Shown piece after piece: positions 3,157-40,998 of a DNA stretch of 64,000 nucleotides; positions within the stretch are counted from its first letter, which is position 1; every line of letters begins with the position of its first letter. The translations under genes and the position numbers were made by a program. Location of the stretch: the NCBI RefSeq assembly GCF_003751445.1, contig NZ_RJUU01000001.1, positions 5,260,001 to 5,324,000 on the forward strand. Reading direction: 5' to 3'. This DNA comes from Streptomyces sp. 840.1. Its GTDB lineage: Bacteria > Actinomycetota > Actinomycetes > Streptomycetales > Streptomycetaceae. The notes under the pieces are model-generated. The model was not told where the DNA came from. It saw nothing but the letters and a program-made list of their open reading frames with translations, and did no database searches.

Positions 3157-3160
3157 CTAG
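2207..3160 (+). CDS. IS481-family transposase
   Basis: DDE transposase of 317 residues starting at GTG 2207. The N-terminus has a helix-turn-helix (TETGRLRLARCVVDDGWPLR, then SPTTAQRWAVRYREQG) and a second DNA-binding domain (ARIAYLLGLNPATVHRVL). The catalytic core shows VHVDIKKLG (first Asp), VLTDNGACYKS (second Asp) and NGKVERFNRTLLDEW (Glu), in the order and spacing of the family. Length is normal and no frameshift is seen, so it may still be active. The TAG stop lies in the CTAG target copy, just outside the inverted repeat, so the host target site supplies the stop codon. Confidence 0.9.
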   Translation: MPHRNAPLTETGRLRLARCVVDDGWPLRRAAERFQVSPTTAQRWAVRYREQGEAGMADRSSRPHHSPSRTPTRTECRIIKVRVLRRWGPARIAYLLGLNPATVHRVLTRYRLARLTHLDRATGRVIRRYERDRPGELVHVDIKKLGNIPDGGGHKTLGRPAGRKTRSGAGNSYLHNAVDDHSRLAYSEIHPDEKKETAVGFWTRAHAFFTRAGITVERVLTDNGACYKSHLWRTSLAEEGISHKRTRPYRPQTNGKVERFNRTLLDEWAYAKPYRSEAERRAAYPAWLHTYNHHRGHTALKGQPPASRVPNLTGQNT

Positions 3161-4741: not shown

Positions 4742-4795
4742 GTCCTGGCCGAGCTGATGGACAGCGATGCGGAGATCCTGGACTACCTGAAGTGA
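4742..4795 (+). pseudogene. Antitoxin C-terminal remnant (17 codons)
   Basis: Right of the IS3 end, 17 codons remain open: VLAELMDSDAEILDYLK followed by TGA at 4793. They overlap the GTG of the Doc toxin by 4 bp (GTGA), the usual antitoxin-toxin layout. The 5' part of the gene is gone. The identity as an antitoxin is inferred only from position and coupling to the toxin. Confidence 0.55.
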
Positions 4796-5187
4796 CCCAC
4801 GTGCGCTACATCCATATCGACGAGATCCTGGCCATCGCTCGCACGGTCAACGACACCGAGCACAGCGTGGGTGACATGGGACTTTTGGTGTCAGCGATCG
4901 AACGGCCCCGGACGAACGTATTCGGGGCCGAGCTGTATCCCACGCTGCACGAGAAGGCGGCGGCGGCACTGCTGCACTCCGTCGCTCGCAATCACGCGCG
5001 GATCGACGGCAATAAGCGCAACGCCTGGCTTGCCATGCGTGTCTTCTTGCGGTTCAACGGTGGCAGCGCCAGTACCGCCCCGCCACCCGTCTCCGCGGCT
5101 GGCCCGTTCGTTGAGGGAGTCGCGCAGGACAACATCGATGTACCGGCTATTACCAAGCGCCTGTCGACCTGGTTCCCCGTTTCCTGA
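4792..5187 (+). CDS. doc: Doc/Fic-family toxin, antitoxin lost
   Basis: Protein of 131 residues in the Doc size range, starting GTG 4792 within GTGA. Doc toxins use a Fic fold to phosphorylate EF-Tu and are held in check by the C-terminus of a Phd-type antitoxin. The Fic motif here reads NHARIDGNKRNAW: the histidine, the D-G-N-K-R anion-binding loop and the following tryptophan are present. The third motif position, usually hydrophobic (HALVDGNKR-type in actinobacterial Doc proteins, from memory), is arginine. Together with loss of most of the antitoxin, this suggests the toxin is weakened or silent. Its original promoter lay upstream of the IS3 insertion. Confidence 0.8.
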   Translation: MTHVRYIHIDEILAIARTVNDTEHSVGDMGLLVSAIERPRTNVFGAELYPTLHEKAAAALLHSVARNHARIDGNKRNAWLAMRVFLRFNGGSASTAPPPVSAAGPFVEGVAQDNIDVPAITKRLSTWFPVS

Positions 5188-6370: not shown

Positions 6371-6438
6371 AGCCCGTCGTAGGAGGCAGGGCCGCACGGC
6401 TCCGTGGCCGATGCCACGGAGCCGCACGGCGGTTACCG

Positions 6439-6714
6439 TCAGAAGCCGACGCTCGGATCGTCCGTGTCCTCTTCCGGGTCCACGCTGTACAGCGGGCGGT
6501 CCTCGATCCCCAGGGCGCGCATCAGCTCGTTGGTCGGAATCCTGTACCTACGTCCGATGCGGAGGACGGGGCAGGGGAACTCGTGCTCGCGGATCAGCCG
6601 GTACGCGGTCGTTGAGCCGATTCCGAGTGCTCGGGCCGCCGTGCGCAGGTCCACTGCGACGGGCAGGTCGAACATCTCCGTGAAACTGAGGCGGCGCTCT
6701 GCCGGGTCCTTCAC
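6439..6714 (-). CDS. Helix-turn-helix (excisionase-like) DNA-binding protein
   Basis: Small protein of 91 residues starting GTG 6714, overlapping the upstream gene's stop by 4 bp (GTGA), so the two are translationally coupled. It contains a MerR/excisionase-type winged helix: VDLRTAARALGIGSTTAYRL, IREHEFPCPVLRIGRRYRIP and TNELMRALGIE. Such proteins bind DNA as recombination directionality factors or regulators. No integrase is visible nearby, so a regulatory role with its partner is as likely as an excisionase role. The acidic C-terminal tail (DPEEDTDDPSVGF) is unusual for excisionases. Confidence 0.75.
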   Translation of the reverse strand: MKDPAERRLSFTEMFDLPVAVDLRTAARALGIGSTTAYRLIREHEFPCPVLRIGRRYRIPTNELMRALGIEDRPLYSVDPEEDTDDPSVGF

Positions 6715-7478
6715 CCTCGCCTCCCCGCAGGGCGGACCGGCCGGGTGTCCGCGCGGCGCCCGAGCCGTCGCCTCTTCCCGGGGCTGTGACCCGCCGAACG
6801 GCCCTGCGATCCCTCGTCGGTGTCGATGAAGATTCCCTGTCGGCGCAGATGTTCCGGACGCACCCGGAAACGCAGCGGTGCGCACAGCCCGTCCGGGCCG
6901 TCCGGACGGTCGACCCGTACGTCCAGGCTCTCCGCCGCCGGAGCGTCCGCCTCCTCGCCGGACGCAGTGAGAGCGTGCTCCTCGGTGATGCGTTCGATCT
7001 TGGTGGAGGGAAGCTCCCGCAGCCCTTCCCGGGCGAGACGCCACGCCCTGGCGCGCGCCGCGTGCAGCAGGGAGGAGTCGGTGAGACAGCTCGCGCCGTC
7101 CCGATCCGCCAGCTTCTCCAGGAGAGTCAGGACCATCTCGGCCTCCACGTCCGACTGGTCGGCCCGCAGGCGAGTGCAGACCCGGTGGACCGTCCCGGTC
7201 AACCGGGGCAGGGTCAGCCAGATCGCCAGGAGTTTCCCCGTGCTGTCTGGAGTCAGGTCGCTCTGCGCCGTGCGGATGACCTCCTTCCAGACCGCGGTGG
7301 CGAACTTCGGGTCGAAGCCGGGGCCGTACAAGGCTTCGTGCGTCTCGGCGGCGGTCAGCCGGACCGGATCAGCCTCGTCGGCGTCCGTGGGGACGAGCAC
7401 GAAGACCGCGTCACTGGTCCGGGGATCGTCGAAGTGCCGCCTCACCGAGGCGAACGCACTGCTATGCGGTGGATACAT
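6711..7478 (-). CDS. Conserved hypothetical protein upstream of HTH gene
   Basis: Protein of 255 residues, ATG 7478 preceded by a GAAAGGA-type ribosome binding site. I do not recognise a named family. The first two thirds look globular and mostly helical (AVWKEVIRTAQSDLTPDSTG, TVHRVCTRLRADQSDVEAEM, LLHAARARAWRLAREGLREL), loosely reminiscent of sigma-factor-like or replication-associated helical bundles. The last 60 residues are Arg/Gly-rich and probably disordered. It forms a two-gene operon with the excisionase-like gene, which suggests joint function. No membrane segment or signal peptide is seen. Confidence 0.65.
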   Translation of the reverse strand: MYPPHSSAFASVRRHFDDPRTSDAVFVLVPTDADEADPVRLTAAETHEALYGPGFDPKFATAVWKEVIRTAQSDLTPDSTGKLLAIWLTLPRLTGTVHRVCTRLRADQSDVEAEMVLTLLEKLADRDGASCLTDSSLLHAARARAWRLAREGLRELPSTKIERITEEHALTASGEEADAPAAESLDVRVDRPDGPDGLCAPLRFRVRPEHLRRQGIFIDTDEGSQGRSAGHSPGKRRRLGRRADTRPVRPAGRRG

Positions 7479-7726
7479 CAGGAAATGTCCTTTCTTCGGA
7501 CTGCGAAAACCTGAGTCCGGAGGTGCTGGAGATACCGAGACGCTGGACGAGTGGGGGCGTACCGCCTTATATCCGCGTCAAGCGGAGACGAGTCCCATCA
7601 GCCTCGCTTTGATGCGTGAGCATGCGGTGGTGGTCTGCTCGACCAGGTAACGCCGCCTTTGACCATGAGCGTGTAACAAGCGAGGCATCCAGGCCGCGTG
7701 CTCGCCGTGACGAAGTTCGCGAGGCT

Positions 7727-7768: not shown

Positions 7769-7927
7769 TCAGGCGGTCTCGGAGGACGAGGTGTCCGGCG
7801 CCTCGGTGGGCGGGGTCGCCGGGGTGGTGTCCTCGGTCCGGACGGCCGCCCGCCGGCGGCGGCTCGGCGGCCAGTCGGGGGACTGGCGCAGACGGGCTGC
7901 CCGGCGGTTGCGCTGACGGCTGTTCAT
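7769..7927 (-). CDS. Small basic protein, 52 residues, unknown function
   Basis: ATG 7927 with AGAGGA about 13 bp upstream opens a 52-residue protein: MNSRQRNRRAARLRQSPDWP, then an Arg-rich stretch and a Thr/Pro/Glu-rich acidic tail (TPATPPTEAPDTSSSETA). A perfect hairpin follows the stop, which supports it as a real transcription unit. The basic head and acidic tail resemble nucleic-acid-binding or disordered accessory peptides, but I cannot assign a function. Confidence 0.45.
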   Translation of the reverse strand: MNSRQRNRRAARLRQSPDWPPSRRRRAAVRTEDTTPATPPTEAPDTSSSETA

Positions 7928-8173
7928 CGGGTTCGCGGTTCCTCTCTGATGAGTCGATGGATGACTAAGCCGCCGTTTCGTGCCTCTGCGAGCGGCTGGT
8001 GCCATCGTGCCCGGGGGTGAAGCGGGGCCGCAGAGCGAAAACTGAGGGATAACTGAGTCCCCGGGGGGCGTGAAGAAGCAAGCGCGTGTGAAGCAGCGCA
8101 GCGCGGCGCACAGATGAAGGAGCGCCGGCGAGAGGCCGGATCACTGATCTGCGACGCGGTGAGGGGGAGGGCG

Positions 8174-10933
8174 ATGGAGGGGTACGTGCTGGGCCCGGTG
8201 CGAGCCGAAGGGGACGGTGGCAGGAGGGTGGTCGAAGGGTCGAAGGTGGCGGCCCTGTTCGCCCTCCTGGTGACCTCCCCGGACTGCCGATGCAAGAGGA
8301 AGGACGTAGCCGAAGTCCTCTGGGAGGGCGTCGAAGACGTCGGCGATCTGGTCAACCGCGTCGTCGCCGACCTGCGGAAGCGGCTGGGCCAGGAGTCCGT
8401 GCCCCATAGCGGCAAATCGGGTTACTGCACGCTCCGCGTGCCGGTGGGAGACGTCGACCTGCTCCGTTTTCGCGCAAAGGTGAAGCAGGCTGAGGGGCTG
8501 ACCTGCAAAGCGCAGTTCGAGCTGCTCGGCGCGGCCTTGGGGGAGTGGGACGGCGAGGACGAACCGCTGCACGGACTGTCCGAGACCGGCTTCCACTTGC
8601 GTCGGGATGAGCTGCGGGCCGAGTTGATGGCCGCCGTGTACGCGCGGCTGGATGCAGCCTACAAGTCCAGGGAGGTCAAATGGCTGCGCGAGGAGACGGA
8701 GAAATGGTTCGAGCGCACGCCGGAATCGCCCCAGATCTTCCGGTTCTACCTGCTCGCCCACGCAGACCTGCCGGAGTCCCAACGTGAGCGGCTCATCGAG
8801 AAGTGGGAGAAGCGCAACGGAAAGGCGGATGTCGATGTACAGAGCGCCATTGACCAGGTCCGGGGAGAGAGCCGCCGGCCAGGCGGGGCGCTCCTGCCCC
8901 CCGTTCCCGACCAGTTGCCCGGCGGTAGGCGCGAGCCGATCGGGCAGGACGAGCTGATCGGCGACCTCTTCGAGGCCGTGTGCGAGGAACAGGATGCCGG
9001 CAATCTGGCGCTGGTCCTGATCAGCGGCATGGCGGGTGTCGGGAAGACAACGGTGGCCGAGAACCTCGCCGGTCGGCTGCGGGAGCGGTTTCCCGACGGG
9101 GTGCTGCGCGGCGCACTGAACGGATTCGTCGACGGAGACGTGCGGCCCACCGAACCGGACGAGGTCCTGGACGGCTTTCTGGCCGCGCTGCCGCCCTACA
9201 CCACGGTGACCGGAACGGAGAGCAAGAGCAACGCGCTGCGGTCGGCGCTGGCGCACCGGTCGGCGCTCATCGTCCTCGACGACGCGCTCAGCGCCCAGCA
9301 GGTGCTGCCGCTGCTTCCCGGAGACGGTACCTGCGCCGTGATCGTCACCAGTCGTAACGACCTCTTGCGGCTGCAGTCCGAGAGAAAGGTGCTGTTCCGC
9401 AAGATGGAGCCGCTGCACGAGGCGGACGCGCTGGAGGTGCTCCAGGAGAAAGTGTCGGCCGAGGACCGGGCCAAGCACGCCATGGCCTTCAGCGAACTTG
9501 TCGGCCTCTGCGGCGGACTGCCGCTGGCCCTTGTGGTGGTGGCCCGGCTCCTGGACGTTGGTGCGCGTCCGCTGCACACCCTCCCTCTCCTGGTGCGAGA
9601 GATGAAGGAGGAGCGGAAGCGGGCGATGTTGGACACCCTGGACCTGCCCGAGCACGAACTGTCGGTCCGCGCAGCACTCAACTGCTCCGTGCGCGTGCTG
9701 AATGAGGAAGCCCGACTGCTGCTGTGGCAGCTCGCCGTCCACCCGGGGCCCAGCGCTTCCTGGGAGGCGGTGATGGATCTGGGACGGGCAGTGGACGAAG
9801 GGACGCGTACCGACCGGGCCCTGGTGGACCTCGTGGCGGCGAACCTCGTGGAACATCACGGCGACCGCTACGGGCTGCACGACCTTGTGCGGGCCTTCGC
9901 CCTTCGGTACGTGCGGCCGGTGCCGGACGGAGAGAGCGCGGAGATCGAGCGCGCGACCGAACGGCAGGTGCTGGAACACCAGCTGCACAACGTCCGAGCC
10001 TGCGACCGGGTGCTCGACCGCGAACGCACCCTGCCCACCGGCGAGCCCGGAGCGGTCGGGGTCACCGACCCCGCGGACCTCGCGGAGGCGATGGCGTTCC
10101 TGGACGAGGAGTACCCCGCCGTCCAGCGAGGCATTCGCTTAGCGATCAATCGGCGTATCGACCGGTACGTGTGGCTGCTTCCGATGACGCTGGTCATCTA
10201 CCAGTGGCGCCGTCGCCTGCTCGATGATGCGCGGCAGAACCTCCAGTGCGCCGCAGAGGCGGCGGAAACCGTCGCCGGCCCGGTCGATTGCGCCATGGTC
10301 TACCGGTCGCTTGCAGGGACCCATTGGCGGCTCGGTGAGTACGGCTTGGCTGTGGGCAACCTGCGCAGGGCCGTCCGTCGCAGCGAGGAGGACCGCAGCA
10401 CGGAAGGCCGGCTGAGTCTGGCCCGTACGCTGCACCGGCTCGGGCTCACCCTGCGCAGGCAGGGCGACCGGACGGGAGCGGAGGAAGCGCTCAGTCGCGC
10501 ACTGGAGTTGTGCCGAGAGCTGTCCGACCGGGTCGGGGAGGCGGCTGTTCTGAACGTCCTCGGCGCGATCGACCTCGACCGGGGCGAGCACGAGCAGGCG
10601 CTCCGTCGGTGCGCCGACGCCCTGGGCGTGGTGGAGCGCACGACGGAGCGCAGCGGCCTGGCCGATGTGCTGTTCACCCTGGCCAAGGTGCACCTGGCCC
10701 GTTCCGAACGGGACGAAGCCATCACCCTGTACCGGCAGGCCTCCGACATCTACCGCGAACAGGAGAACTGGCCCAACGAGGACAAGGTACGGATGCTCTT
10801 CGCTGAGGTCCTGGTGTCCGCCGGCGACACCGACGCGGCGGTGCGGGAGCTGGAGAGAATCATCGTGCTGCGTGAGCGGATGGACAGTGAGGGGGCTCGG
10901 GAGGTCCGAGAGCGGCTGGAAGGGCTGAGGTGA
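8174..10933 (+). CDS. AfsR/SARP-like STAND NTPase with TPR repeats
   Basis: Protein of 919 residues; ATG 8174 was chosen because GAGGGGGAGG lies just before it and MEGYVLGPVRA matches the usual SARP start. Residues 1-95 form an OmpR-type winged helix, 95-230 a BTAD-like helical domain, about 275-520 an NB-ARC STAND ATPase, and 690-900 TPR repeats. Walker A is GMAGVGKTT (Lys291), Walker B LIVLDD (Asp369/370), and CGGLPLAL is the GxP motif. SARP-STAND proteins are signal-gated transcription factors. The gene converges on the kinase and precedes the pPIWI_RE operon. Classical SARPs govern secondary metabolism, but no biosynthetic genes lie nearby, so the PIWI operon is its most plausible target. 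That link is inference. Confidence 0.85.
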   Translation: MEGYVLGPVRAEGDGGRRVVEGSKVAALFALLVTSPDCRCKRKDVAEVLWEGVEDVGDLVNRVVADLRKRLGQESVPHSGKSGYCTLRVPVGDVDLLRFRAKVKQAEGLTCKAQFELLGAALGEWDGEDEPLHGLSETGFHLRRDELRAELMAAVYARLDAAYKSREVKWLREETEKWFERTPESPQIFRFYLLAHADLPESQRERLIEKWEKRNGKADVDVQSAIDQVRGESRRPGGALLPPVPDQLPGGRREPIGQDELIGDLFEAVCEEQDAGNLALVLISGMAGVGKTTVAENLAGRLRERFPDGVLRGALNGFVDGDVRPTEPDEVLDGFLAALPPYTTVTGTESKSNALRSALAHRSALIVLDDALSAQQVLPLLPGDGTCAVIVTSRNDLLRLQSERKVLFRKMEPLHEADALEVLQEKVSAEDRAKHAMAFSELVGLCGGLPLALVVVARLLDVGARPLHTLPLLVREMKEERKRAMLDTLDLPEHELSVRAALNCSVRVLNEEARLLLWQLAVHPGPSASWEAVMDLGRAVDEGTRTDRALVDLVAANLVEHHGDRYGLHDLVRAFALRYVRPVPDGESAEIERATERQVLEHQLHNVRACDRVLDRERTLPTGEPGAVGVTDPADLAEAMAFLDEEYPAVQRGIRLAINRRIDRYVWLLPMTLVIYQWRRRLLDDARQNLQCAAEAAETVAGPVDCAMVYRSLAGTHWRLGEYGLAVGNLRRAVRRSEEDRSTEGRLSLARTLHRLGLTLRRQGDRTGAEEALSRALELCRELSDRVGEAAVLNVLGAIDLDRGEHEQALRRCADALGVVERTTERSGLADVLFTLAKVHLARSERDEAITLYRQASDIYREQENWPNEDKVRMLFAEVLVSAGDTDAAVRELERIIVLRERMDSEGAREVRERLEGLR

Positions 10934-10963
10934 CCCGCCCGGTCGGCGGTCGTCGGCTCACCG

Positions 10964-11872
10964 TCAAAGCCGGGGCGGATGCGTGCGGTAGTACTCGGTC
11001 GGGTCCGGGCGCAGAGGCTTCGACGGCCGTCGCGAGCCGAGCTGGGGTAGGTAGCAGCGGAGCCGTTCGAACACTTCACGGACATCCGCAGGGCGCTCCA
11101 CCGCCTTCCACCGGACCATCCACAGCGCCAGGGAGCCGAACTCCGGGGGTAGTTTGGCTAGCCGGTCGGCCGGCAGCACCGGGGTGCCCTCTTCCGCCCG
11201 CTCTTCCTGTCCGCCGTAGGGCAGGCGCATCACGGTCATCTCCAGCAGGATGCAGCCGAGTGCGAAGATGTCCGCTTGCCGCGTCAGACCTGAAGGACAC
11301 GCGTCGGACTGCTCGGGGGAGGCCCAGCCGCGCGTGCCGCGTGCGCATTCCGTCTCCTGATCCGCCACGACCGCGTGGCCCATGTCGATCAGCCGGAGAC
11401 GGCCGTCCGGCTGCACGATGACGTTCTCGGGCTTGAGATCGCAGTGCACCAGATTCCGGTCGTGGACTTCTGCCAGAATTTCGCACAATTGGCCGATGAC
11501 GGCCGCAACGGTCCCAGGATTCTTGACGGGCAGGGCCGCCGACAGGACCTTCTGCAGTTGGTGCCCTTCGACGAATTCCATTACCAGGCACCGGCGTCGC
11601 CGGTGTGTCCCCGTGGCGATGACTTCGGCAATCGCCTGGATTCCCGTCAGCATCATCATGCGTGATCCCTCTTCGAGGAGTTCATCGCCGGCCCAGCGGA
11701 AATCGCTCTCGGGTCCGAGGTCCCGGGCCTTCTGAAGCTTCAATGCCACCTTCTGCCCGCTGTTGCGGTCACGCCCGAGGAATAGGTCACCTTGGCCGCC
11801 GTCGCCGACCATGTCCAGCACTTCATAGCGCCTCTCCACATCGCCGACCTCCTCGATCTCCCTCACGGCCAT
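10964..11872 (-). CDS. Hanks-type Ser/Thr protein kinase, cytoplasmic, non-RD
   Basis: Kinase of 302 residues. Start ATG 11872 is preceded by GGAGGAAAGG; an in-frame ATG at 11902 has no such site. Visible motifs are the glycine loop GDGGQG (23-28), VALK (Lys45), catalytic loop HCDLKPEN (143-150), DMG instead of DFG (163-165) and SPEQ in the activation segment. The Arg before the catalytic Asp is Cys, a non-RD kinase, which usually does not need activation-loop phosphorylation. No transmembrane or PASTA region follows the domain, so it acts in the cytoplasm. It is divergent from the Cas4-like nuclease (33 bp between starts) and convergent with the STAND gene. Confidence 0.85.
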   Translation of the reverse strand: MAVREIEEVGDVERRYEVLDMVGDGGQGDLFLGRDRNSGQKVALKLQKARDLGPESDFRWAGDELLEEGSRMMMLTGIQAIAEVIATGTHRRRRCLVMEFVEGHQLQKVLSAALPVKNPGTVAAVIGQLCEILAEVHDRNLVHCDLKPENVIVQPDGRLRLIDMGHAVVADQETECARGTRGWASPEQSDACPSGLTRQADIFALGCILLEMTVMRLPYGGQEERAEEGTPVLPADRLAKLPPEFGSLALWMVRWKAVERPADVREVFERLRCYLPQLGSRRPSKPLRPDPTEYYRTHPPRL

Positions 11873-11905
11873 CCACCTTTCCTCCGCACGGAAATGGAGC
11901 ATGAA

Positions 11906-13468
11906 ATGTCACAGCCATGGCTGCCCCCCAACGGGGTGACCCGCACGTCCGACGTCATCACGGTATCCGCCGGAATGTTCAAGGGGGGAGAGTTCCGATG
12001 CCCCGCCGCTGACGCACTCAAGACCCGCGGGTACCACACCACCGACCCCGTACCGCGCCGCCGTGAGCGGTTGGAGCACTTCGCTCTGGGCCCCTTCATG
12101 GCTGCCTGCGACATCTGTTCCGGACCTGCCGGCCACCCGCCCCGGACACGTACCGGGCCCTTGCACGACGGTCTGCGGACCTGGTCGGAGCACGGCGTGA
12201 CGTTGTACGAGGCGGCCTTTCCCTCCGACCCGGAACGCCCCCTGCACGAGGTGCCCGAGCCGTGGACGTACCGCTACCGGCCGACCGGTCCCGACCCGCG
12301 CGACGCCCGGGAGTACCGCCTCACCGTGTGGGGCCGCTGCCTGGCCTCCCCCGACGGTGCCTACCGCGAGCTTCGTCTGCCCGTGCACCGCCTGCGGGAC
12401 CTGCCACCCGACGGGTTCACCGCGGCCGTCGCCCTGGTGCTTGCCGAGGGCGCCCCCGGACCACCGCCGGAGCACGTACGGATCGTGGAGTTTGCGCTCT
12501 TCGACGGCCGTACGCGGGAACTCTTCGCGGGAAGCCGGGAAGAGGCGCGCGCCCGGTACCGCGAACACGGACCCGCTGCCCTGGCCGGCGTGCTGGACGG
12601 ACGGGAATACCGCCCAGGGTCCGCCTGTGGCGGATGCCCCTACCTGTCGGTGTGCCCGGCCCTGCGCACAGCGCCCGGACTGTTGGGCATCAAGGCGCAC
12701 GACCGACCCCGCCGCACCTGGTCGGTCACCAACGGACGGGCCTACCGAGCCTGCCCGGCGCGTGACCATATGCGCCGGTTGCACCTGCCCACGGCGGATT
12801 CCGTCGAACGCGAGGTGACGGCCGAGCGCGGCCGGGCGCTGCACGCCTACCTCGCCGAACGGCACGCCCACGGATCGCCTCGGCCCTGCACGGTCGAGGT
12901 CCCCGAGGAGTGGGTACCGGAGGGATTCGACCTGCCCGCACACGAACGCGCACTCGGCGCCCTGCTGTTGCGGCGGCACGCCGCGGTCTGTCCGCTGCGG
13001 TACGTCGGGGACGGTACGGATGTGCGGACCGAGCCCCGGGTGGTGCGGCACGACACAGCCGCCGACGTGGTGGTCCTGGCCGCGCCCGACCTGCTCTACC
13101 GGGATGCCGGGTCATGGGTGTGGCGCGAGACCAAGACCTCCGTCATCGATCGGCGGTCCGATCGCCCCCTGCTGGAGCGTTATCCGCAGTTGGCCCTGGC
13201 CGTCGTGCTGATCGCCCGCGGTGACCTGGGCGGTGATCCGTTCCGCGCACGGGTCGAGCTGGAGGTGCTGCGCCCCGGCGGCGCCGACCTGGAAATCATC
13301 GATCCCTTCGCCCCGGCCAATCGGGTCACCGCCGAGAAGGTACTGCGGGCGATGGTGGCCGACTGGCACGGGGACGACCAGTACGCGGCCCGGCCCGGAC
13401 GCTCCTGCGAGCGGTGCGAAGTGGCCCGCTGGTGCAAGGCGTCGTCCGTCAGCGAGGCCGCGGCATGA
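11906..13468 (+). CDS. Cas4/RecB-like Fe-S nuclease, first gene of the pPIWI_RE operon
   Basis: Protein of 520 residues; GGAG 6 bp before ATG 11906. The C-terminal half has the full Cas4/AddB layout: Cys283 (AYRACPARD), His313 (RALHAYLAE), Asp395 (APDLLYR), E408-x-K410 (WRETKTS), Gln428 (YPQLALAV) and C501-x2-C504-x5-C510. The D-E-x-K residues form the PD-(D/E)xK active site and the four cysteines should hold a 4Fe-4S cluster. The N-terminal half has its own C241-x2-C244-x5-C250 after a beta-rich stretch, so it may be a second, degenerate copy of the fold. Classical Cas4 is about 200 residues. The stop overlaps the next start (ATGA). No cas genes are present. Confidence 0.8.
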   Translation: MSQPWLPPNGVTRTSDVITVSAGMFKGGEFRCPAADALKTRGYHTTDPVPRRRERLEHFALGPFMAACDICSGPAGHPPRTRTGPLHDGLRTWSEHGVTLYEAAFPSDPERPLHEVPEPWTYRYRPTGPDPRDAREYRLTVWGRCLASPDGAYRELRLPVHRLRDLPPDGFTAAVALVLAEGAPGPPPEHVRIVEFALFDGRTRELFAGSREEARARYREHGPAALAGVLDGREYRPGSACGGCPYLSVCPALRTAPGLLGIKAHDRPRRTWSVTNGRAYRACPARDHMRRLHLPTADSVEREVTAERGRALHAYLAERHAHGSPRPCTVEVPEEWVPEGFDLPAHERALGALLLRRHAAVCPLRYVGDGTDVRTEPRVVRHDTAADVVVLAAPDLLYRDAGSWVWRETKTSVIDRRSDRPLLERYPQLALAVVLIARGDLGGDPFRARVELEVLRPGGADLEIIDPFAPANRVTAEKVLRAMVADWHGDDQYAARPGRSCERCEVARWCKASSVSEAAA

Positions 13469-14610
13469 AGGCGGGGTCGGCCGGCCGGGCCGATCGGCCG
13501 GACGCAGGCGAGGCGCCCGAGGGCGTGGGCAGTGACCTCTTCGGCGAACTCGCCCGCATGGTGGCGGCTCTCTCCGAGATCCAAGGGCTCCGCTCCTTCA
13601 CCCTGCCCTATCCCGGCCTCGCCCAGCAGGCGCTGGATCACACGGTGATGCGCTGCCTCGATGCGGGGGAGGCGCCGCCGAGGAGTCTTCCGGAGCTGTG
13701 GGAGTGGTGTCGGACCAGGCCGTCCGACGACCCACTCTTCGCGGTTCGCTCCTCCCTGGTCTCGCCGGGCACCACGCTGGTGCACCGGGTCGGCCGGATG
13801 CCGACCCGGTCGTGTCTCGAGGTGGCCTCGCACGGACCGGACGGAGGCATGGCGGGATACGCCCGCGCGCTCCTCGGAGACCTGCACGCGCGGAGTGGAA
13901 CGGAGGAGCGCTACCGGCAGTGCAGGGCGTTCCTGGCGCGTCACCCGGTCGTCCACCAGCAGGACCGCTTCGCGCCGGGTTGGAACAGGGCGGTCTGGAG
14001 CCGGGTCAAGAACCTCTACGGTCCGTTGCCCGAGTTCCTGCTCGTCGACGGAGACTTCCTGTACTGCCCCTCGTGCAGGCTCCCCGCGCTGCCCCGGGAC
14101 AGTGCCGTGCCCGTACCCGGACCGTTCGGCACCGGCGCGGAAGTCTGGTGTGAGGGGGAGGACTGCCCGCGCGACGCCCCTCCGCGGCTCATCCGTGAGC
14201 CGGACCAGGCGTGGATCCTGCAGCGCTCGCTGCGGTGGTACCTCGTACTGCCGCACCGCACCGACGTAGCCGCCCGGGAGGCACTGGAGCGCTCCGAAGT
14301 CGTGTACGAGACCCTGGCCGGTTTTCTGCCGGCCTACCGGCTCAGGGACACCGGCCCCCGCATCGTGGACATCCACGTGTACGACCGCCTGCAGCCGGCG
14401 CTCCTGGCAGCCCACCTCACCGACAACACACCCCTCGCGGACCGCACCCTCGTCGTGGTCCCCGACGCGCTTGCCGGACGGGACGGCTACCGGCGGGCCT
14501 TCACCGACGCCCTTCCCGTGCTCCTGCGGGACCGGCTGGTGCTCACCACCCCCATGGATCTCGTGCCCGACCTGGGACGGGCCCGGCGAGAGGAGAAGGA
14601 CGATGCGTAG
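13465..14610 (+). CDS. pPIWI_RE-associated protein with zinc ribbon and REase-like C-terminal domain
   Basis: Protein of 381 residues coupled by ATGA to the nuclease gene. The N-terminal part is helical (LPYPGLAQQALDHTVMRCLD, LPELWEWCRTRP). A zinc ribbon follows: C201PSC204 and C229-x4-C234. The C-terminal domain (about 295-370) alternates strand and helix: RIVDIHVYDRL, PALLAAHLTD, DRTLVVVPDAL, DRLVLTTPMDLV. Its position and shape match the restriction-endonuclease-like partner known from pPIWI_RE islands. Where active members carry D/E-x-K, this one reads D302-I-H304-V-Y-D307, so the catalytic lysine seems absent. Family placement comes from memory of those islands and needs a profile search. 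Confidence 0.6.
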   Translation: MKAGSAGRADRPDAGEAPEGVGSDLFGELARMVAALSEIQGLRSFTLPYPGLAQQALDHTVMRCLDAGEAPPRSLPELWEWCRTRPSDDPLFAVRSSLVSPGTTLVHRVGRMPTRSCLEVASHGPDGGMAGYARALLGDLHARSGTEERYRQCRAFLARHPVVHQQDRFAPGWNRAVWSRVKNLYGPLPEFLLVDGDFLYCPSCRLPALPRDSAVPVPGPFGTGAEVWCEGEDCPRDAPPRLIREPDQAWILQRSLRWYLVLPHRTDVAAREALERSEVVYETLAGFLPAYRLRDTGPRIVDIHVYDRLQPALLAAHLTDNTPLADRTLVVVPDALAGRDGYRRAFTDALPVLLRDRLVLTTPMDLVPDLGRARREEKDDA

Positions 14611-17600
14611 CCTCACCCCGCCCTTGACCGACGTGTTCAACGCGCTCAAAGGATTTCTGGGGTCCTCCGTGCCCCAGCCTGCACTGGAAGCCCTCTGCCA
14701 GGTCGAACTCGGCCTGTACCTCCAGCAGAAGATGATGCCGGGCAGCCCCGCGGGCAGCGCCTGGGTGCTGTTCAGCGGGTACGGGTTCGCCGAGGCGCAC
14801 CGGGCACCGCTGCCGTCCGATGCGGCGAAGACCCTGCGCATCGCCAGGTACTCGCTGTGGACGCTGCGCCGGAGCCGCACCTGGCTCGAGGCGCTGGACA
14901 CCTACCAGAGGTTCGACGCCAGGGTCCGCGCCTACGACGTACCGGACGCCGAGACACCCGCTGCCCGCCGCGACCTCTCCGTCGCCGGCGACCGCTTCTC
15001 CGTCTACGAACAACTGCTGCGTGCCGCACCGCCGCTGGCGGGCCGGCGCCTGCAGGTCGCGGGTCAGGGCCCGCACGCCTTCCCCGTCAATCGCACCATG
15101 GCCGTTGTCGACCTTCCGCCGGCCCCCCGCATCCCCCTCGTCGCCCACGACATGGACCTGGAACCGGCCGGCGGCGGCGAGCCCCTGATCTTCACCAGGG
15201 AGAATCTGGAGGGCACGGCGGCGGAGATGGACGCCCAGCACGCTCGCTCCGGCAAGGGCCGCGCACCACGGTGGCTGGAGCGGCTACGGTCGTTCGACCT
15301 GTCCACCAAGTCGAACGGAACCTTCCACAAGGCGAGGAAGGACGAGGACTTCGCCTTCACGGTCGACGGCATCCAGCACCTGCTCGGCATCGTCGGCGCC
15401 GGCAAGAGCACACTGCGCGACATCATCGCCGTCTATCTCGCCAAGCTAGGCAAGCGCACCACCATCGTCGTCACTGATGTCGCGGAGGTGCTGAAGCTTG
15501 TCCGGCTCTACGACCTCTACACCGACGGCGCCGCCGCACCCGTGCTCGGCTCCTCCGGCCGTGAGCGGCACGCCCAGCGGCTGCACCGCCGGCTGGCGGG
15601 CCGGGGCGAGCACCGACTGCTCGCCCACGACGACCCTGCCTTCGCCTACCTCGGCACGTCCTGCCTGCTCAACGTCAGGCGGCTGGGCGCCACGTCAACG
15701 ACCGAACCACTCGCCTACGGCGAGGCACCCTGCTCCCGACTCCGGCCCCCCTCGGCCCTGCGGCGTGACCCGAGCGACGGACGATACTCCGAGTGGCAGA
15801 AGAGGGTGACGAGCTGCCCGTACTGGTCCGCCTGTCCCCGTCACCACGGAGCTCGCACCCTGGTCGGCGCCCTGATCTGGGTGGCCACGCCGGCCGGGCT
15901 GATCGACGCCTCGCCGCCCCGCCCTCAGAACGGCGAGCGCATCCGCTTTCTCGAACTCGCCTGCCGCCGTAGTGACCTCGTGATCATCGACGAGGCCGAC
16001 CGTGTCCAGATGCAGCTCGACCGGACCTTCGCACCCGCCGTGGTCCTCGCCAGCGATGAGGACAAGGGCCTCATCGACCAGCTGAGCCGGCACAAGATCC
16101 GGGAACTCGCGGCCGGCGGACGCACCCAGCTCTCCGAACGGGACGTCGAGACCTTCGCCGCCGCCCTCAACACCGCAGGCGCGGCCACCGACCGGCTGTA
16201 CGCGATGCTCGTCGCTGGGTACGAGCTGCGCAAGTGGGTGCGGACGGGCTACTTCAGCGCCTGGACGCTCCAGTTGGGGCTCCTCGACGAACGCTACGAA
16301 CACCCCTACGACAGCGGTCCGGACCACCCTCACCACGCCCCCCGCGAGGCTCTCGGGAAACTGCTCGACGCGTTCCGGGACAACCCCTTCGGTGACCGTC
16401 ACCGCAGGACGGAGGAGGACTTCAGCCGGCTGACCGCCCTCCTCAACGAACTGCTCCACACCGGCAACCCGGAGAACACCCGGCGCCGCCTCACCGAGGT
16501 CATGGACGAGGTCTTCTCCATCGACTCGAAGTACATGGCCGCCCGGCAGCGGAAGTACCAAGAGGCGTACGCCGAGTGGCGGCGCGAGGAGGAACAGGAG
16601 GGGAAGCGCGGACACCGCAGGAAGCCCAAGCCTCCGCCCCAGACTCCCGAGGAGTGGCGGAAGCAACTCGCGGAGCGCTTCGAGTTCACACTGTTGCTCA
16701 GCGCCCTCGAACCGCGGCTCGCCATGATCAACGCCATGTGGCCCCGCGTCGAGGCTGCCCTCAGCCTGGGCTTCAACACGATGTACCGCCGGCCGCTCGA
16801 CTACGGTCCGATGGTGCCCGAGGCCCCGATGGGCAATGTGCTCGGCTTCCAGTTCCGGGTCCCGGGTGAGGATAAGGGCGGAGTCCGCAGTGGCGAACTG
16901 ACCTTCTTCCGGTGCAGCGGCGTCGGACGTGAGCTGCTGCGCACCATCCCCTATCTCACCTCCGTCGACGGCAGGCCCGGTGCCCACTTGCTGCTCATGT
17001 CGGGCAGCAGCTGGGCGGGCGCGTCCAGCCGCTACCACGTCTGCGTCCCGGTCGGTGTGGTCATCGAACCGCCGGCCGAGGTGACCGAACGCATCGCCGA
17101 CGGGAGCTCCATGCGCTTCGAGTTCATCGACGACGGCGACGAGAAACTGCGCATGTCGGGAACCCATCCGGACGACCGCCCGGAGAAGTTGCGCCGTATC
17201 GCGTGCCATCTGGGTGAGGGCGGAGACGAGTACGAGGTCACTGAAGGTGGTCCGCTCCAGCAGGAGTTGCTCTCTCTTCCTCCAGGGCGCGACCAGATCC
17301 TTCTGCTGGTCGGCAGCTATGCCGAGGCACGTGTGGTGGCCGACACACTGCACAACCTCAACGTTCGCTGGCACAGCAAGGTGCTGTGCCTGGTGTCGGA
17401 CGACGAGGAGATCACCGCGGAGGACGAGGCGCCGTCCGCCTACCACGCCCGATCACTGCGCCGGGGCGACGTCGAGCACCTGAAGGACCTCGAAGCGGAC
17501 ATCCTGGTGGCGCCCCTGCTCGCGCTGGAACGCGGCCACAACATCCTCAACGAGGACGACGAGGCGGCCATCGGCACGGTCTACTTCCTGGCACGCCCCC

Positions 17601-18109
17601 ATCCGCACCCAGAGGACCTCCACCTGGCCGTCAACGCCGTCAACGACTGGGTCGTCCGCGCCGTCACCGGCGGTGACTTCGCCACCCTGGTACGGGGACA
17701 ACCCACCGTCGAGGAAGGAGCGGAGGAGTTCCACCGCCTCGCCCGTTCGTACTGGTACCAGGTACTCGCCCGTTCGATGGCGTGGAGCCGTCTCGACGAT
17801 GATGTACGGAAACAGGTCACCTGGGACATGCTGGTCCTGTTGTGGCAGGTGATCGGGCGACTGGTACGCGGTGGCGTACCGGCCCGGGTGGTCTTCGTCG
17901 ACGCCGCCTTCGCCCCCAACCGCGGCGCCGTACCGGCGCGGCCCGACACCCCCGAATCCAGTCTGCTGCACAGCGTCCTCGCCGTCCTGGACCCGTACTT
18001 CGACGGCGGCACGAAGACCGCGGAGGAGCAGTTCATCGTCCGCGCCCTGTACGCGCCACTGCGCAGCATGCTCACCCGCCTGCTCGCCACCGTACCCGCC
18101 CACCCGTAA
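14603..18109 (+). CDS. DinG/XPD-like Fe-S superfamily 2 helicase of the pPIWI_RE island
   Basis: Protein of 1,168 residues; ATG 14603 overlaps the previous gene by 8 bp. Residues 1-240 are a helical island-specific region (ARYSLWTLRRSRTWLEALDT). Walker A is GIVGAGKST (Lys268), the DEAD box is IIDEAD (463-466), and motif VI is QVIGRLVR (1082-1089). Between motifs I and II four cysteines (C354, C377, C405, C411; SCPYWSACPRH) are placed like the Fe-S cluster of XPD/DinG helicases, which unwind 5' to 3' and resolve R-loops. A charged coiled insert (KYQEAYAEWRREEEQEGKRG) lies near residues 650-680. No frameshift is seen. The helicase class is secure; its substrate is inferred. Confidence 0.8.
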   Translation: MRSLTPPLTDVFNALKGFLGSSVPQPALEALCQVELGLYLQQKMMPGSPAGSAWVLFSGYGFAEAHRAPLPSDAAKTLRIARYSLWTLRRSRTWLEALDTYQRFDARVRAYDVPDAETPAARRDLSVAGDRFSVYEQLLRAAPPLAGRRLQVAGQGPHAFPVNRTMAVVDLPPAPRIPLVAHDMDLEPAGGGEPLIFTRENLEGTAAEMDAQHARSGKGRAPRWLERLRSFDLSTKSNGTFHKARKDEDFAFTVDGIQHLLGIVGAGKSTLRDIIAVYLAKLGKRTTIVVTDVAEVLKLVRLYDLYTDGAAAPVLGSSGRERHAQRLHRRLAGRGEHRLLAHDDPAFAYLGTSCLLNVRRLGATSTTEPLAYGEAPCSRLRPPSALRRDPSDGRYSEWQKRVTSCPYWSACPRHHGARTLVGALIWVATPAGLIDASPPRPQNGERIRFLELACRRSDLVIIDEADRVQMQLDRTFAPAVVLASDEDKGLIDQLSRHKIRELAAGGRTQLSERDVETFAAALNTAGAATDRLYAMLVAGYELRKWVRTGYFSAWTLQLGLLDERYEHPYDSGPDHPHHAPREALGKLLDAFRDNPFGDRHRRTEEDFSRLTALLNELLHTGNPENTRRRLTEVMDEVFSIDSKYMAARQRKYQEAYAEWRREEEQEGKRGHRRKPKPPPQTPEEWRKQLAERFEFTLLLSALEPRLAMINAMWPRVEAALSLGFNTMYRRPLDYGPMVPEAPMGNVLGFQFRVPGEDKGGVRSGELTFFRCSGVGRELLRTIPYLTSVDGRPGAHLLLMSGSSWAGASSRYHVCVPVGVVIEPPAEVTERIADGSSMRFEFIDDGDEKLRMSGTHPDDRPEKLRRIACHLGEGGDEYEVTEGGPLQQELLSLPPGRDQILLLVGSYAEARVVADTLHNLNVRWHSKVLCLVSDDEEITAEDEAPSAYHARSLRRGDVEHLKDLEADILVAPLLALERGHNILNEDDEAAIGTVYFLARPHPHPEDLHLAVNAVNDWVVRAVTGGDFATLVRGQPTVEEGAEEFHRLARSYWYQVLARSMAWSRLDDDVRKQVTWDMLVLLWQVIGRLVRGGVPARVVFVDAAFAPNRGAVPARPDTPESSLLHSVLAVLDPYFDGGTKTAEEQFIVRALYAPLRSMLTRLLATVPAHP

Positions 18110-18141
18110 GCGCCGAACCCCCTGTCCCAGGAGGTAATTCC

Positions 18142-20910
18142 GTGTACCACCACATTCGCGTCACGGCCTATGAACCTGACCCGCTCCACGGACCCTGGCG
18201 GGAGGAGATGAAAGTGCTGCGGCTCGGCGAGGACCTGCACGCCGAGCTCACCGGGATGCATGCCGAGGCGGGCAAGAACTCCGTCCACCCCCACCGGCTC
18301 CCCGTGCGCAGGTTCAACTCCCTGCTCCAGGCGATGGCGCCAGGCGTCATCGCGACCGGCCGCAACGCCGGGACGGATGGCCGTCTGCCGTGGCTCTACG
18401 CGCGGGAAGCCGTCCCGCCGGACGTGCTGGCCCCGGTGGTAGGAGCTTGGGCGGCGGGCATGCACCGGGAGGACGACGACTCGGAGGGCGCCGATTTCGA
18501 GGAGAGGCTCCGCTCTGGTGACCCGACCGAGACGGTACGTCTGCCCCACTGGGAGACAGAATCGGTCGACCTCGCCGAGAGCGTGCTCTCGGCGGGCGGA
18601 ACCGCCGAACCCGCCGCGCGACTCTACAGCCTGCTGCCCGAGTGGATCGCCTTCCGGCTGGCCGCCCGGACGTTCCGCACGGGCGGCACCACACTCCACT
18701 TCCGCGTTGAGAGCTCGGGTGACGGCGCGCGGCTTGTCTCCTGGCCGCCTCAGCGATACGAGCGCCGACGGCAGACCTGGTACTACTCGGCCTGCCTCGC
18801 CATCACCGTCCACACCGTGCCGTTCGCTCCGCGGTTCCGCGTCCATGTGTCCACCCAGGTACGCCGGTGGGCCACCCGACTGGACGCACGCCCCCACCAG
18901 CTCGGCGGTACGACCGTCCTGCTCGACGCTCCACTGCCGTGGCCGGAAGGGCCGGACCGGGGCCACCGGCTGATGGTGAACACACTGGGCTACGACCGGC
19001 GGTCGAAGGAACTGGCATGGCGCCGGCACAGTCCCGCACCGCTTGTGCCCGAGCTGGACATCGTGCGCAACTATCCCCGGCCCGAAGCGCTCTTCTCCGA
19101 CCCTGAACGCTGGATCAACGGTTCCGGGGACGTGGCCGCCGGCATCGTCTACCACCCGTCGATCGGCCCGCACGAGGTCGGACCCGGGCTGATGCCACAG
19201 GAGCGGGCGGATCTGGACGCCTGGGTCGAGGAAGGGCTGCGTCCCCTGCTGACCCGGGTCCCCGACCTCACGCGCGTCTCCCGGAGCAACACACCCTCCC
19301 TGCTGCCCCGTTCCGGCGCCGGACGCGTCCCGGGCGTCCGCGACGCCCAGCTAGCTCTGCAGCGGCGGGCGGCGCTGACACGCGCACTGAACGGCCGCCC
19401 CCTGGAGATCGACGTCTTCTGGCAGTCCCCGGAAACCCGTGCGGCGCTGCTCGCCGAGCTGCCCAAGCTCATTGGTCTTCCCGCCGGGCAACAAGTGCCG
19501 TCGGCCGACGGGGAGACCTGGCAGTGGCAGTGCGAGGGGGTCGATATCCGCGTCCGGGCCCGGCCCGCGGGACTCTTGGCCGACGCACTGCCGACCACCC
19601 GAGCCCGCGGGCGCCTCAGGGCCGTCCGGTTGGCCGAGGCCATTGAAGTGCGCTGCGGGCTCGTGGCGGACCGGGGGCGCCCGCTTCTCGGCGGGGCCGG
19701 AGTCGTGATCACGGAGATCGCCGGCAAGGAGCGCTTCGCTGCCGTCCCGGACTCCGACCCCAAGCACGCGCTGCGCATCGCCTGGGCACGGCAGGGACGG
19801 CTGACCCAGTTCGTGAACTCGCCCGACGACACCGACAGCGCTCTGGAACACCGGGCCCGGTGGACCTGGCTGGACGCCTTCCGGCAGCTGGGCGCGATCA
19901 GCCCGCCCGCCCACCGGGTGGGAGCCGGCATTCCGGGCGACCTTCAGTACGCGGCGCTCTGGCTCGTACGCCACACCAGGAAGGGGCCCACGCGATGCCC
20001 CGTCCACCGGCTGGTGGCGGTGCGGGTGCGCCTCGGGGACGGACCGGGCGTCATCGAGGGGTGGGACGCAGAACGAGCCGAATGGGTGCCGTATCCGAAG
20101 CTGTTGCTGCTGCTCTCCCAGGCACGGGAACCGGCGGCGAGTGGCGGGAAGGAGACCGGCACGGGGAAGCTCGTCGAGGACTCGGCAGCCCCGGGAGGAT
20201 CCCGGCCCGCTGCCCGCCCGGGCGTGGAGCAGGACAGGCAGCGGGAGACCGAGCGGCAGATCCGGGCACTGCTCTTCCAGCTCCGCGACCGCCCGACGCT
20301 GCTGCTGGCGGACGCCGGTAATCTGCGCCAGTGCTGGCCTGGCCTGCGCAACGGTGCACTGGACCGCGACACGCTCGGCTTCGGGGCCGAACCCGCCCAG
20401 CGGCACACGCTCTACGGCCACGACCTGCGGGTGCTGCTCGTACGGGACGCTAACGCCCGGGGTGAGGTGGCGGAGTGGTACGCCCACGATACCGAGGACG
20501 GGGTCGGCTTCGCCGAGGGTGTGTGGGGGACGGCGGATACGGAGGGCCGTGTCTTCGCGAGTACGGCCTCGAAGCCGCACACGGTGGTGAAACTGCCGAA
20601 GGGGCTCATGAAGCTGGTGCCCACGGCACAGGGCCGGACAGCGCCCGGGAAGACCGCGTGGAACCCCGGGCAACTGGAGATCACCGTGCTCGGCTGTCTG
20701 TCGGAGAAGGCGCTGACGGATTCGGGGCGTGCGGGTGACCCGCCCGACTGGCCGGCGGAGTGGGCGACGCTCACGCACCAGCTGCGCTACCACGACGATT
20801 ATCCACCGCTCGCCCGGCCTCTCCCGCTGCACTGGGCGCGTCTCGCCGGTGAGTACGTACTTCCGGTGGCTGGAACGAAGTCAGCGGGGAGTACGTCATC
20901 CGCTTCCTGA
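18142..20910 (+). CDS. pPIWI_RE-type prokaryotic PIWI protein
   Basis: Protein of 922 residues; GTG 18142 follows a strong GGAGG, 32 bp after the helicase stop. The N-terminal half (about 1-450) corresponds to the island's domain of unknown function plus MID-like region. The C-terminal part has the RNase H/PIWI hallmarks of this family: LLLADAGNLRQCWPGLRN (Asp724, Arg729), QLEITVLG (Glu846), THQLRYHDDY (Arg882) and the tail RPLPLHWARLAGEYVLPV. The conserved Arg and Glu that name the family are visible. Relatives are predicted RNA- or DNA-guided defence proteins working with a DinG-type helicase and a nuclease. Whether the D/E set allows slicing is not clear from sequence alone. Confidence 0.82.
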   Translation: MYHHIRVTAYEPDPLHGPWREEMKVLRLGEDLHAELTGMHAEAGKNSVHPHRLPVRRFNSLLQAMAPGVIATGRNAGTDGRLPWLYAREAVPPDVLAPVVGAWAAGMHREDDDSEGADFEERLRSGDPTETVRLPHWETESVDLAESVLSAGGTAEPAARLYSLLPEWIAFRLAARTFRTGGTTLHFRVESSGDGARLVSWPPQRYERRRQTWYYSACLAITVHTVPFAPRFRVHVSTQVRRWATRLDARPHQLGGTTVLLDAPLPWPEGPDRGHRLMVNTLGYDRRSKELAWRRHSPAPLVPELDIVRNYPRPEALFSDPERWINGSGDVAAGIVYHPSIGPHEVGPGLMPQERADLDAWVEEGLRPLLTRVPDLTRVSRSNTPSLLPRSGAGRVPGVRDAQLALQRRAALTRALNGRPLEIDVFWQSPETRAALLAELPKLIGLPAGQQVPSADGETWQWQCEGVDIRVRARPAGLLADALPTTRARGRLRAVRLAEAIEVRCGLVADRGRPLLGGAGVVITEIAGKERFAAVPDSDPKHALRIAWARQGRLTQFVNSPDDTDSALEHRARWTWLDAFRQLGAISPPAHRVGAGIPGDLQYAALWLVRHTRKGPTRCPVHRLVAVRVRLGDGPGVIEGWDAERAEWVPYPKLLLLLSQAREPAASGGKETGTGKLVEDSAAPGGSRPAARPGVEQDRQRETERQIRALLFQLRDRPTLLLADAGNLRQCWPGLRNGALDRDTLGFGAEPAQRHTLYGHDLRVLLVRDANARGEVAEWYAHDTEDGVGFAEGVWGTADTEGRVFASTASKPHTVVKLPKGLMKLVPTAQGRTAPGKTAWNPGQLEITVLGCLSEKALTDSGRAGDPPDWPAEWATLTHQLRYHDDYPPLARPLPLHWARLAGEYVLPVAGTKSAGSTSSAS

Positions 20911-21424: not shown

Positions 21425-22090
21425 ATGGCAGTGATCTGCGTCGGCGGCATGATCGGGATCGGCAAGACGAGTGTCGCCGAACTGATCGCCAAGGAACTTG
21501 GGAGCAAGGTCTTCTACGAGAGCGTGGAGGACAATCCGATCCTGCCGCTCTTCTACACGGCCGGCCCCGAAGAGATAGAGGCGAGGCGGTACCCCTTCCT
21601 CCTCCAGCTCTACTTCCTGCAGACGCGTTTCGCCGCGATCAAGGACGCGTACAAGCAGGACGACAACGTTCTCGACCGCTCCATCTACGAGGACTGGTAC
21701 TTCGCCAAGGTCAACCACGACCTCGGCAGGATCAGTTCCCTGGAGATGCGGGTGTACGAGGGGCTGCTCGCGGAGATGATGCGCGAGATCGACGGCCTGC
21801 CCTACCGCAAGGCACCCGATCTCATGGTGTACCTGCGGGCGGACTTCGAGACGGTTCTGCACCGCATCGGGCTGCGGGGACGCGACTTCGAACAGGACCG
21901 GAGTCTCGTCGGGTACTACCGGACGCTGTGGTCGGGGTACGACGACTGGGTGCGCGAGCACTACCGCGCCAGTGACGTCCTCGTGGTCGACATGAACGAC
22001 ACCGACGTGGTCAACAGTCCCGAGGACGCGGAGCGCGTGGTCCGGGAAGTCACAGACGCCCTGGCACTGGCGAGGTCACGGCGCGCCTGA
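21425..22090 (+). CDS. Deoxynucleoside kinase
   Basis: Protein of 221 residues, ATG 21425. It transfers phosphate from ATP to deoxynucleosides (dAdo/dGuo type) for dNTP salvage. The P-loop is GGMIGIGKTS (7-16). ESVEDNPILPLFY matches the substrate-binding region after beta-2, LDRSIYED is the DRS motif that binds the sugar and base, and LRGRDFEQ is the Arg-rich lid. Length is typical of bacterial deoxynucleoside kinases. It is a single-gene unit, separated from the next operon by a B12 riboswitch, and probably belongs to the conserved chromosome. Confidence 0.88.
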   Translation: MAVICVGGMIGIGKTSVAELIAKELGSKVFYESVEDNPILPLFYTAGPEEIEARRYPFLLQLYFLQTRFAAIKDAYKQDDNVLDRSIYEDWYFAKVNHDLGRISSLEMRVYEGLLAEMMREIDGLPYRKAPDLMVYLRADFETVLHRIGLRGRDFEQDRSLVGYYRTLWSGYDDWVREHYRASDVLVVDMNDTDVVNSPEDAERVVREVTDALALARSRRA

Positions 22091-36472: not shown

Positions 36473-36655
36473 GGTGGAACTCCGATCGTGATCTCTCAAC
36501 ACTACGAGGTGGCTGCCGTCCGGGCGCGGTGAGGCGCGGCAGGGGCGGCGGGGATGTGGCGGGGATGGCGGGGGGCGAGGGGCCGGAAGGGCGCGCCGCA
36601 GGTGCTGCGACGGCCGGTGGCGTCATCGCCTCACCCTCATGTCCCCACTCTGACA

Positions 36656-40959: not shown

Positions 40960-40998
40960 TGCGTGCCCAGTCATGACGACCAGACGATGAGGAAAACC

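Follow-up and report, generated by a model that had tools for sequence, protein, structure and literature searches.

Can a bacterial island built around a pPIWI-RE protein carry a regulatory switch of its own, and what would such a switch turn on? The question is raised by a cassette in Streptomyces sp. 840.1 (RefSeq assembly GCF_003751445.1, contig NZ_RJUU01000001.1, positions 5,260,001 to 5,324,000, a stretch of 64,000 nucleotides called the window below and supplying the coordinates wherever no other locus is named), in which a four-gene pPIWI-RE operon adjoins the genes of a STAND-type regulator and a Ser/Thr kinase. In its three-gene form the pPIWI-RE island was predicted in 2013 to act against invaders by guide-directed restriction (Burroughs et al., 2013, PMC3702460, in the passages drawn on here), and one biochemical study was found in the open-access literature. 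We read the locus in the window as a regulator-gated variant of this restriction island, switched by the STAND protein and degrading DNA with a Cas4-like nuclease (PDX), and would give this reading a probability of about 0.5.

Genes were called from codon-position G+C and translations, and families were placed with Pfam and PADLOC. All six genes of the original prediction, from the regulator to the PIWI gene, were recovered by codon-position G+C, translations and Pfam, and the conserved unit was found to extend leftwards as far as 6439, beyond the boundary first drawn. Its features are as follows.

6439 to 6675, minus strand: HTH_17 (excisionase/AlpA-like) protein of 78 amino acids, left arm; Pfam 41 bits, cut-off 27
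6711 to 7478, minus strand: orphan protein of 255 amino acids, left arm; no Pfam match over the cut-off
7769 to 7927, minus strand: small Arg/Pro-rich protein of 52 amino acids, divergent from the STAND gene
8040 to 8057, no strand: SARP-type direct repeat AACTGAG-N4-AACTGAG, 11-bp period
8174 to 10933, plus strand: regulator with SARP, NB-ARC (STAND) and TPR parts; reading frame open from 8114
10964 to 11872, minus strand: Ser/Thr kinase; longest open reading frame starts at 11902
11906 to 13468, plus strand: PDX, tandem Cas4/AdnA-like Fe-S PD-(D/E)XK nuclease; PADLOC PprPDDEXK 693 bits
13465 to 14610, plus strand: REY, with Y domain, zinc ribbon and a domain like that of restriction endonucleases (REase); PADLOC PprRE 360 bits
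14603 to 18109, plus strand: DinG-Z Fe-S helicase; PADLOC PprDinG 1001 bits
18142 to 20910, plus strand: pPIWI-RE protein (X-MID-RNaseH); PADLOC PprPIWI 1302 bits

In Pfam the Cas4-like protein matched PDDEXK_1, the zinc-ribbon protein pPIWI_RE_Y and REase, the helicase pPIWI_RE_Z, the STAND protein NB-ARC and TPR, and the kinase Pkinase. The operon is tightly packed: the end of PDX and the corrected start of REY (13465) have an ATGA in common (13465-13468), REY and DinG overlap by 8 bases, and 32 bases separate DinG from PIWI. The kinase most likely starts at 11872, to judge from a Shine-Dalgarno sequence and the alignment; it diverges from PDX, their likely starts in the window being 33 bases apart, and converges with the STAND gene, 8-57 bases lying between the stops in 43 of 45 loci and the two genes overlapping in the other 2.

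Do the regulator and the kinase belong to the island? A first genome scan, made with an alignment of 16 PIWI proteins, returned 37 loci, reduced to 35 when two PIWI fragments (L037, L038) were dropped. REY, DinG and PIWI stand in the same order in 35/35, the REase gene-DinG-PIWI order of the known island with PDX in front of it; PDX and an opposite-strand kinase were found in 34/35 and the STAND gene in 33/35, the misses being L032, with a contig end 4.6 kb upstream of PIWI, and L029, where the sequence stops at the kinase (in L020 the STAND gene is cut by the contig end). The closest loci include several with 96-98% identity to the window, which do not count as independent. The order is unchanged down to 39-40% PIWI identity to the window (Actinosynnema, Streptosporangium), and because order and orientation are kept to that depth the arrangement is more than chance. 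Both genes also behave as dedicated orthologues: in 4/4 genomes with the island type of the window (clade A, defined below) the STAND profile scored 1274-1302 bits for the island gene and 492 for the next-best match, against a best of 548 in 8 genomes lacking clade A, and the clade A kinase profile scored 451-464 bits for the island kinase and 206 for the next, against 216 in those 8 genomes. The original prediction was made to depend on conservation of the kinase and STAND genes together with the operon, and on this neighbourhood survey that expectation is borne out.

The 37-locus set says nothing about other clades because its scan patterns came from clade A proteins, and a wider survey was made with PF13032, which occurs in 111 of 392 Streptomyces genomes and in only 6 of 396 genomes sampled from the phylum at large, Streptomyces making up 5 of these 6. 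From it 112 regions were taken (111 of the 140 places in the genus and one place of the phylum survey; of the other 29 places in the genus, 28 were partial matches and were left out, and one was the window itself) and searched with profiles built from the named loci. The PIWI tree holds 71 cluster representatives and the window, and residue counts and four-protein trees use 62 chosen rows with near-identical loci left out; the survey and spacing tables contain duplicate loci (L008/L084, L009/L090 and L024/L105, for example), and the number of rows in them overstates the number of independent genomes. Clade A comprises 12 surveyed loci, each with all six genes, and with the window accounts for 13 of the 392 genomes. 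Clade B1 (23 loci) has a longer kinase and PDX-REY-DinG-PIWI, and clade B2 (14 loci) has the same four genes with no adjacent kinase detectable by the profile used. Three-gene loci were found on a Nostoc plasmid (L068), on a Streptomyces plasmid (L069) and in L160, and further forms include divergent DinG-associated ones and PIWI genes without any detected partner. Separate trees of PIWI, DinG, REY and PDX support clade A at 1.0 and B2 at 0.98-1.0, and recover B1 as a clade for PIWI and REY but not for DinG and PDX.

Pfam found NB-ARC and TPR (TPR_12) domains in 19/19 STAND members, BTAD in 13/19 and Trans_reg_C in 7/19 (the N terminus of L015, L016 and L024 is cut by the locus edge), which between them supply the domain set of large, AfsR-type SARPs (OmpR-type DNA-binding domain, BTAD, NOD and TPR). 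The window protein itself has no BTAD match at E 0.05, and its N terminus, scanned alone, gives a weak Trans_reg_C match of 14.9 bits. SARP sites are direct repeats spaced 11 or 22 bp (PMC10936776, in the part drawn on here), and the direct repeat of the window begins 134 bases before 8174, upstream of the STAND gene. Among the other copies with long upstream sequence, the five closest (L084, L090, L091, L095, L097) all retain the AACTGAG repeat, and L105 has it with a different spacer. At a similar distance and with an 11-base period, TCTGAGG repeats stand in L104, the repeat of L112 is imperfect, and L103, L106 and L111 share a CGTTA-type repeat that has a single mismatch. In L138 the repeat is doubtful, a long palindrome lies near the position of the box and there is no clear small gene. 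The exact pattern matches once in the 8.84-Mb genome, and with up to two mismatches 6 times, against 4 for a reversed control. A perfect 7-mer repeat at the same spacing arises in 4% of shuffled versions of the upstream region, so that a single repeat is weak evidence; the argument is its conservation. The SARP domain and the repeat nonetheless strengthen that part of the original prediction in which the STAND protein would control expression of the PIWI operon; its suggestions of a kinase that senses invasion and of a Cas4-like protein that produces guides remain conjectures.

Three genes face away from the regulator. That of the basic 52-residue protein was seen in 12 of 13 loci, the window counted among them (10 were recognised by pattern and two, L097 and L106, by eye), but not in L138, and its changes at codon positions 1, 2 and 3 (2, 6 and 9 relative to L090; 10, 11 and 17 relative to L105) are no more than suggestive of a coding sequence. 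The orphan gene is kept in 9/12 clade A loci; it has one full-length match in each of 4/4 clade A genomes and 0/8 in genomes lacking clade A, one of which holds a 47-residue partial match. The HTH_17 gene is conserved in 9 of the 12 clade A loci with upstream sequence. In Streptomyces griseoviridis (L037:8663-10371) the orphan region (window 6389-7686) is followed directly by the end of PIWI (window 20499-20873), apparently an island remnant, as if some 12.8 kb had been deleted.

What, then, would be switched on? The first operon protein, PDX, has a degenerate N-terminal half without E-x-K and a C-terminal half with intact motifs; its H, D, E, K and Q, like the eight cysteines that the two halves contain, show no variation in 59/59 proteins, giving it the Cas4/AdnA-type signature (H, D, E-x-K, Q and a four-cysteine Fe-S site), and its predicted structure has a predicted local distance difference test score of 91. 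REY is REase-like, as first proposed, in carrying Pfam pPIWI_RE_Y and REase domains, but the catalytic motif is lost in clade A, where the K of D-x-K is replaced in 22/22 and the D in 22/22 (one has E), and with it the PD-(D/E)XK character of the REase of pPIWI-RE islands. Elsewhere D-x-K is kept: in B1 (D in 22/23, one E; K in 23/23), in B2 (14/14) and in the three-gene clade C (3/3). Three of the four zinc-ribbon cysteines of REY are invariant and the fourth is kept in 17/22 clade A proteins. The helicase keeps Walker A, the four cysteines, motif VI and, apart from Val in place of Ala in 3 proteins, DEAD in 62/62, and it carries the Z domain.

The assignment of the last protein as PIWI is confirmed by Pfam pPIWI_RE_X, MID and RNaseH matches of 366, 97 and 256 bits. 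R768 and E846 occur in 22/22 clade A proteins and were assigned by spacing, not direct alignment, to R639 and E718 of PsPIWI-RE; the R768 column is A in 14/14 B2 proteins, which may be an alignment shift. D525 and D610 are needed in PsPIWI-RE (Huang et al., 2022, PMC10991935, as far as drawn on here). Clade A proteins have no acid at the presumed beta-1 position and D in 9/22 (window included), N in 11/22 and S in 2/22 at the second, and because neither presumed position holds a conserved acid the PIWI protein is probably non-cleaving, a comparison made by presumed position rather than by direct alignment with PsPIWI-RE. Against PDB sequences, PDX, DinG-Z and PIWI had no match below E 0.5.

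How new is this assembly? It agrees with the three-gene pPIWI-RE island in its REY, DinG-Z, PIWI order, its overlapping or close gene ends, its X, Y, Z, MID and RNaseH domains and the retained R and E, and differs in that a Cas4-like gene comes first, the REase motif is lost and the STAND gene, the kinase gene and three leftward genes are added. The Cas4-like gene had been taken for a new fourth member, and the word Cas4 is indeed absent from the main text of PMC3702460; PADLOC-DB v2 of 2023, however, already has PprPDDEXK beside PprRE, PprDinG and PprPIWI, because of which this partner must count as recognised, and it marks the whole branch of clades A, B1 and B2 rather than the six-gene layout. 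All four operon proteins match the Ppr models strongly (compared by model names, not by system definition); a Ppr model turned up neither in the 5 families listed for the STAND protein nor in the 25 best of the 35 listed for the kinase. The layout as a whole was, as supposed, without a prior description that we could find in the open-access literature, which offered nothing useful on STAND-SARP defence, ACE1 or MADS.

DdmDE is a plasmid defence system of an inactive Argonaute and a helicase-nuclease. The cassette resembles it in combining an Argonaute-like protein presumably without cleavage, a helicase and a nuclease, and differs from it in its separate helicase and nuclease, the DinG-type helicase with Fe-S cysteines, the extra Cas4-like nuclease and the STAND and kinase genes. 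Between REY and the nuclease end of DdmD there is a weak alignment, which may point to a common fold. PDX shares its C-half nuclease fold and its association with an Argonaute-like gene with ACE1, an Argonaute-associated Cas4 family (9iac, 9iab, in the portions of these entries used), but it belongs to pPIWI-RE and has, in addition, a degenerate nuclease-like half at its N terminus. In its kinase, large SARP with NOD and TPR, 11-bp repeats and nearby small-protein gene the locus recalls AfsK/AfsR/AfsS (PMC10936776, in part); here, unlike there, STAND protein and kinase are island-specific, and the small protein is likened to AfsS by its position. Both fall far below the NCBIfam equivalog cut-offs (STAND protein 165.7 bits against 1430 for AfsR, NF053617; kinase 52 against 1300 for AfsK, NF053615).

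Taken together, the cassette suggests an inducible defence against invading DNA. An invasion or stress signal would switch on the SARP-STAND protein, whose activity the adjacent kinase may modulate in the manner of AfsK and AfsR; bound to the repeat with its 11-bp period, the regulator would turn on both arms, the leftward one expressing the small protein, the orphan and the HTH_17 protein, and the rightward one the STAND gene and then, by read-through across the antisense kinase gene, the nuclease operon. We infer that the kinase gene thus lies antisense within a noncontiguous operon, a concept described elsewhere (PMC7154746, in part). A consensus scan for promoters gave no promoter-like site above shuffles, and terminator-like sites were fewer than in shuffles (1 versus a mean of 4.2). 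The guide-loaded, probably non-cleaving PIWI protein would find invading DNA or R-loops, DinG-Z would unwind them, REY might serve as a zinc-ribbon/pseudo-nuclease adaptor and PDX would degrade the DNA. Such logic would be that of DdmDE, the nearest working analogy. What the sequence itself shows is the order of the genes, their dedicated orthologues, which motifs are lost and which retained, the repeat and the SARP domain; guide use, DNA degradation, read-through, sensing, phosphorylation and the defence role are inferred.

The sister clades offer another arrangement. In 20 of 23 B1 loci an HTH-N6-methylase gene takes the position of the STAND gene, in the order methylase (rightward), kinase (leftward), PDX (rightward); L125 and L098 depart from this in orientation or order, and in L078 no such gene lies upstream. 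N6_Mtase was found by Pfam in 6/6 B1 methylases tested, one of them from L098, and PADLOC gave MTase_I and weak specificity-subunit matches in 2/2. No methylase match lies within the sequence searched at the clade A loci, and of 12 clade A genomes searched 9 have weaker matches at other places. In B2 a divergent methylase occurs in 3 of 14 loci and none within reach in 11, some of which have an uncharacterised divergent gene set. We tentatively envisage two sister branches of one topology that would answer the problem of self and non-self in different ways, one in which a methylase would mark self and one in which a STAND switch with its own operator would stay off until needed; in the latter the restriction-type nuclease would be dead, the Argonaute-associated Cas4-like nuclease the only intact one and the kinase gene antisense in a noncontiguous operon, which would amount to a bacterial immune system gated by a nucleotide switch and directed by guides.

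The same methylase lends some colour to another, rather unlikely explanation, that the kinase comes from a methylase-kinase module as in B1 and directly phosphorylates the helicase, nuclease or PIWI protein and so restrains or frees them, with the STAND protein doing no more than tune expression. Methylase-kinase combinations are known from Pgl/BREX and MADS, mad6 is the top PADLOC match of the window kinase, the B1 order is as just given, and the window's genome has, elsewhere, a separate N6-methylase followed by a kinase (L182:6842-10679, G000:C1:3242841-3246678). Against this, B2 loci have no kinase adjoining the operon by the profile used, and in G289 the B1 island kinase scores 183 bits with the clade A profile against 207 for another kinase there, which leaves a shared origin of the A and B1 kinases undemonstrated. 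Shared position and a common C-terminal PDPT motif speak for orthology and genome-wide scores against, and we leave the matter undecided. In the kinase itself the catalytic residues K55, D155 and D173 are invariant in 19 rows. It had been called non-RD, which is right for the window protein (HCD) and wrong as a family trait: among 17 clade A rows shown, 11 have HRD, 5 HCD (window, L010, L014, L015, L023) and 1 HGD, and all 11 B1 rows have HRD. At 451-563 amino acids the B1 kinase reading frames are longer than the 312 of the window, and their C-terminal extension looks, by eye, TPR-like.

Less probable still is a stress-induced role in chromosome maintenance, in which the operon would resolve R-loops or replication-transcription conflicts: cells deleted for PsPIWI-RE differed in cell division and in their sensitivity to ciprofloxacin (PMC10991935, in part) and DinG-like helicases act on R-loops (PMC3702460, in part), but the patchy occurrence already described, close islands without the right-flank genes of the window, the methylase in the front slot of the sister clade and the apparent deletion remnant L037 all speak against it. 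That STAND and kinase genes are mere chance neighbours is scarcely conceivable and is rejected on the neighbourhood survey and genome-wide scores, for although 12 genomes hold 28-50 kinase and 22-46 SARP-STAND-like profile matches each, the same order and orientation recur in every reachable clade A locus across genera, with dedicated orthologues.

Under the switch-gated reading, the conserved switch, operator, kinase and surviving nuclease make the 2013 prediction testable, as to the signal, as to the nuclease that cuts and as to whether one system occurs in methylase-marked and switch-gated forms side by side.

Some observations concern the surroundings. In B2 loci L123 (3974-7578) and L126 a divergent gene set adjoins PDX, three of the L123 proteins having no Pfam match over the cut-off and no PADLOC match; G117, G118 and G208 have methylase and kinase matches close together, similar to those of L182; and four B1 loci (L072, L073, L092, L094) carry a second kinase downstream of PIWI. 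The downstream deoxynucleoside kinase and [2Fe-2S]-type genes were rejected as cassette members, with no match in the 37 loci. Carriage by plasmids or phages was likewise rejected, only 3 plasmid records (24.5-26.4% identity) and no phage record matching. Just right of PIWI, the deoxynucleoside kinase gene (21425-22090) has close DNA matches in only 3 of 30 relatives, and no empty site could be defined because relatives have the right flank broken into pieces at other places. Left of the cassette lie genes for an IS481-type transposase (2168-3160) and a Fic/DOC protein (4792-5187), and farther right three PAD_porph (agmatine-deiminase-like) genes (35315-36502, 40963-42012, 47343-48512) stand around a urease alpha gene (39169-40917).
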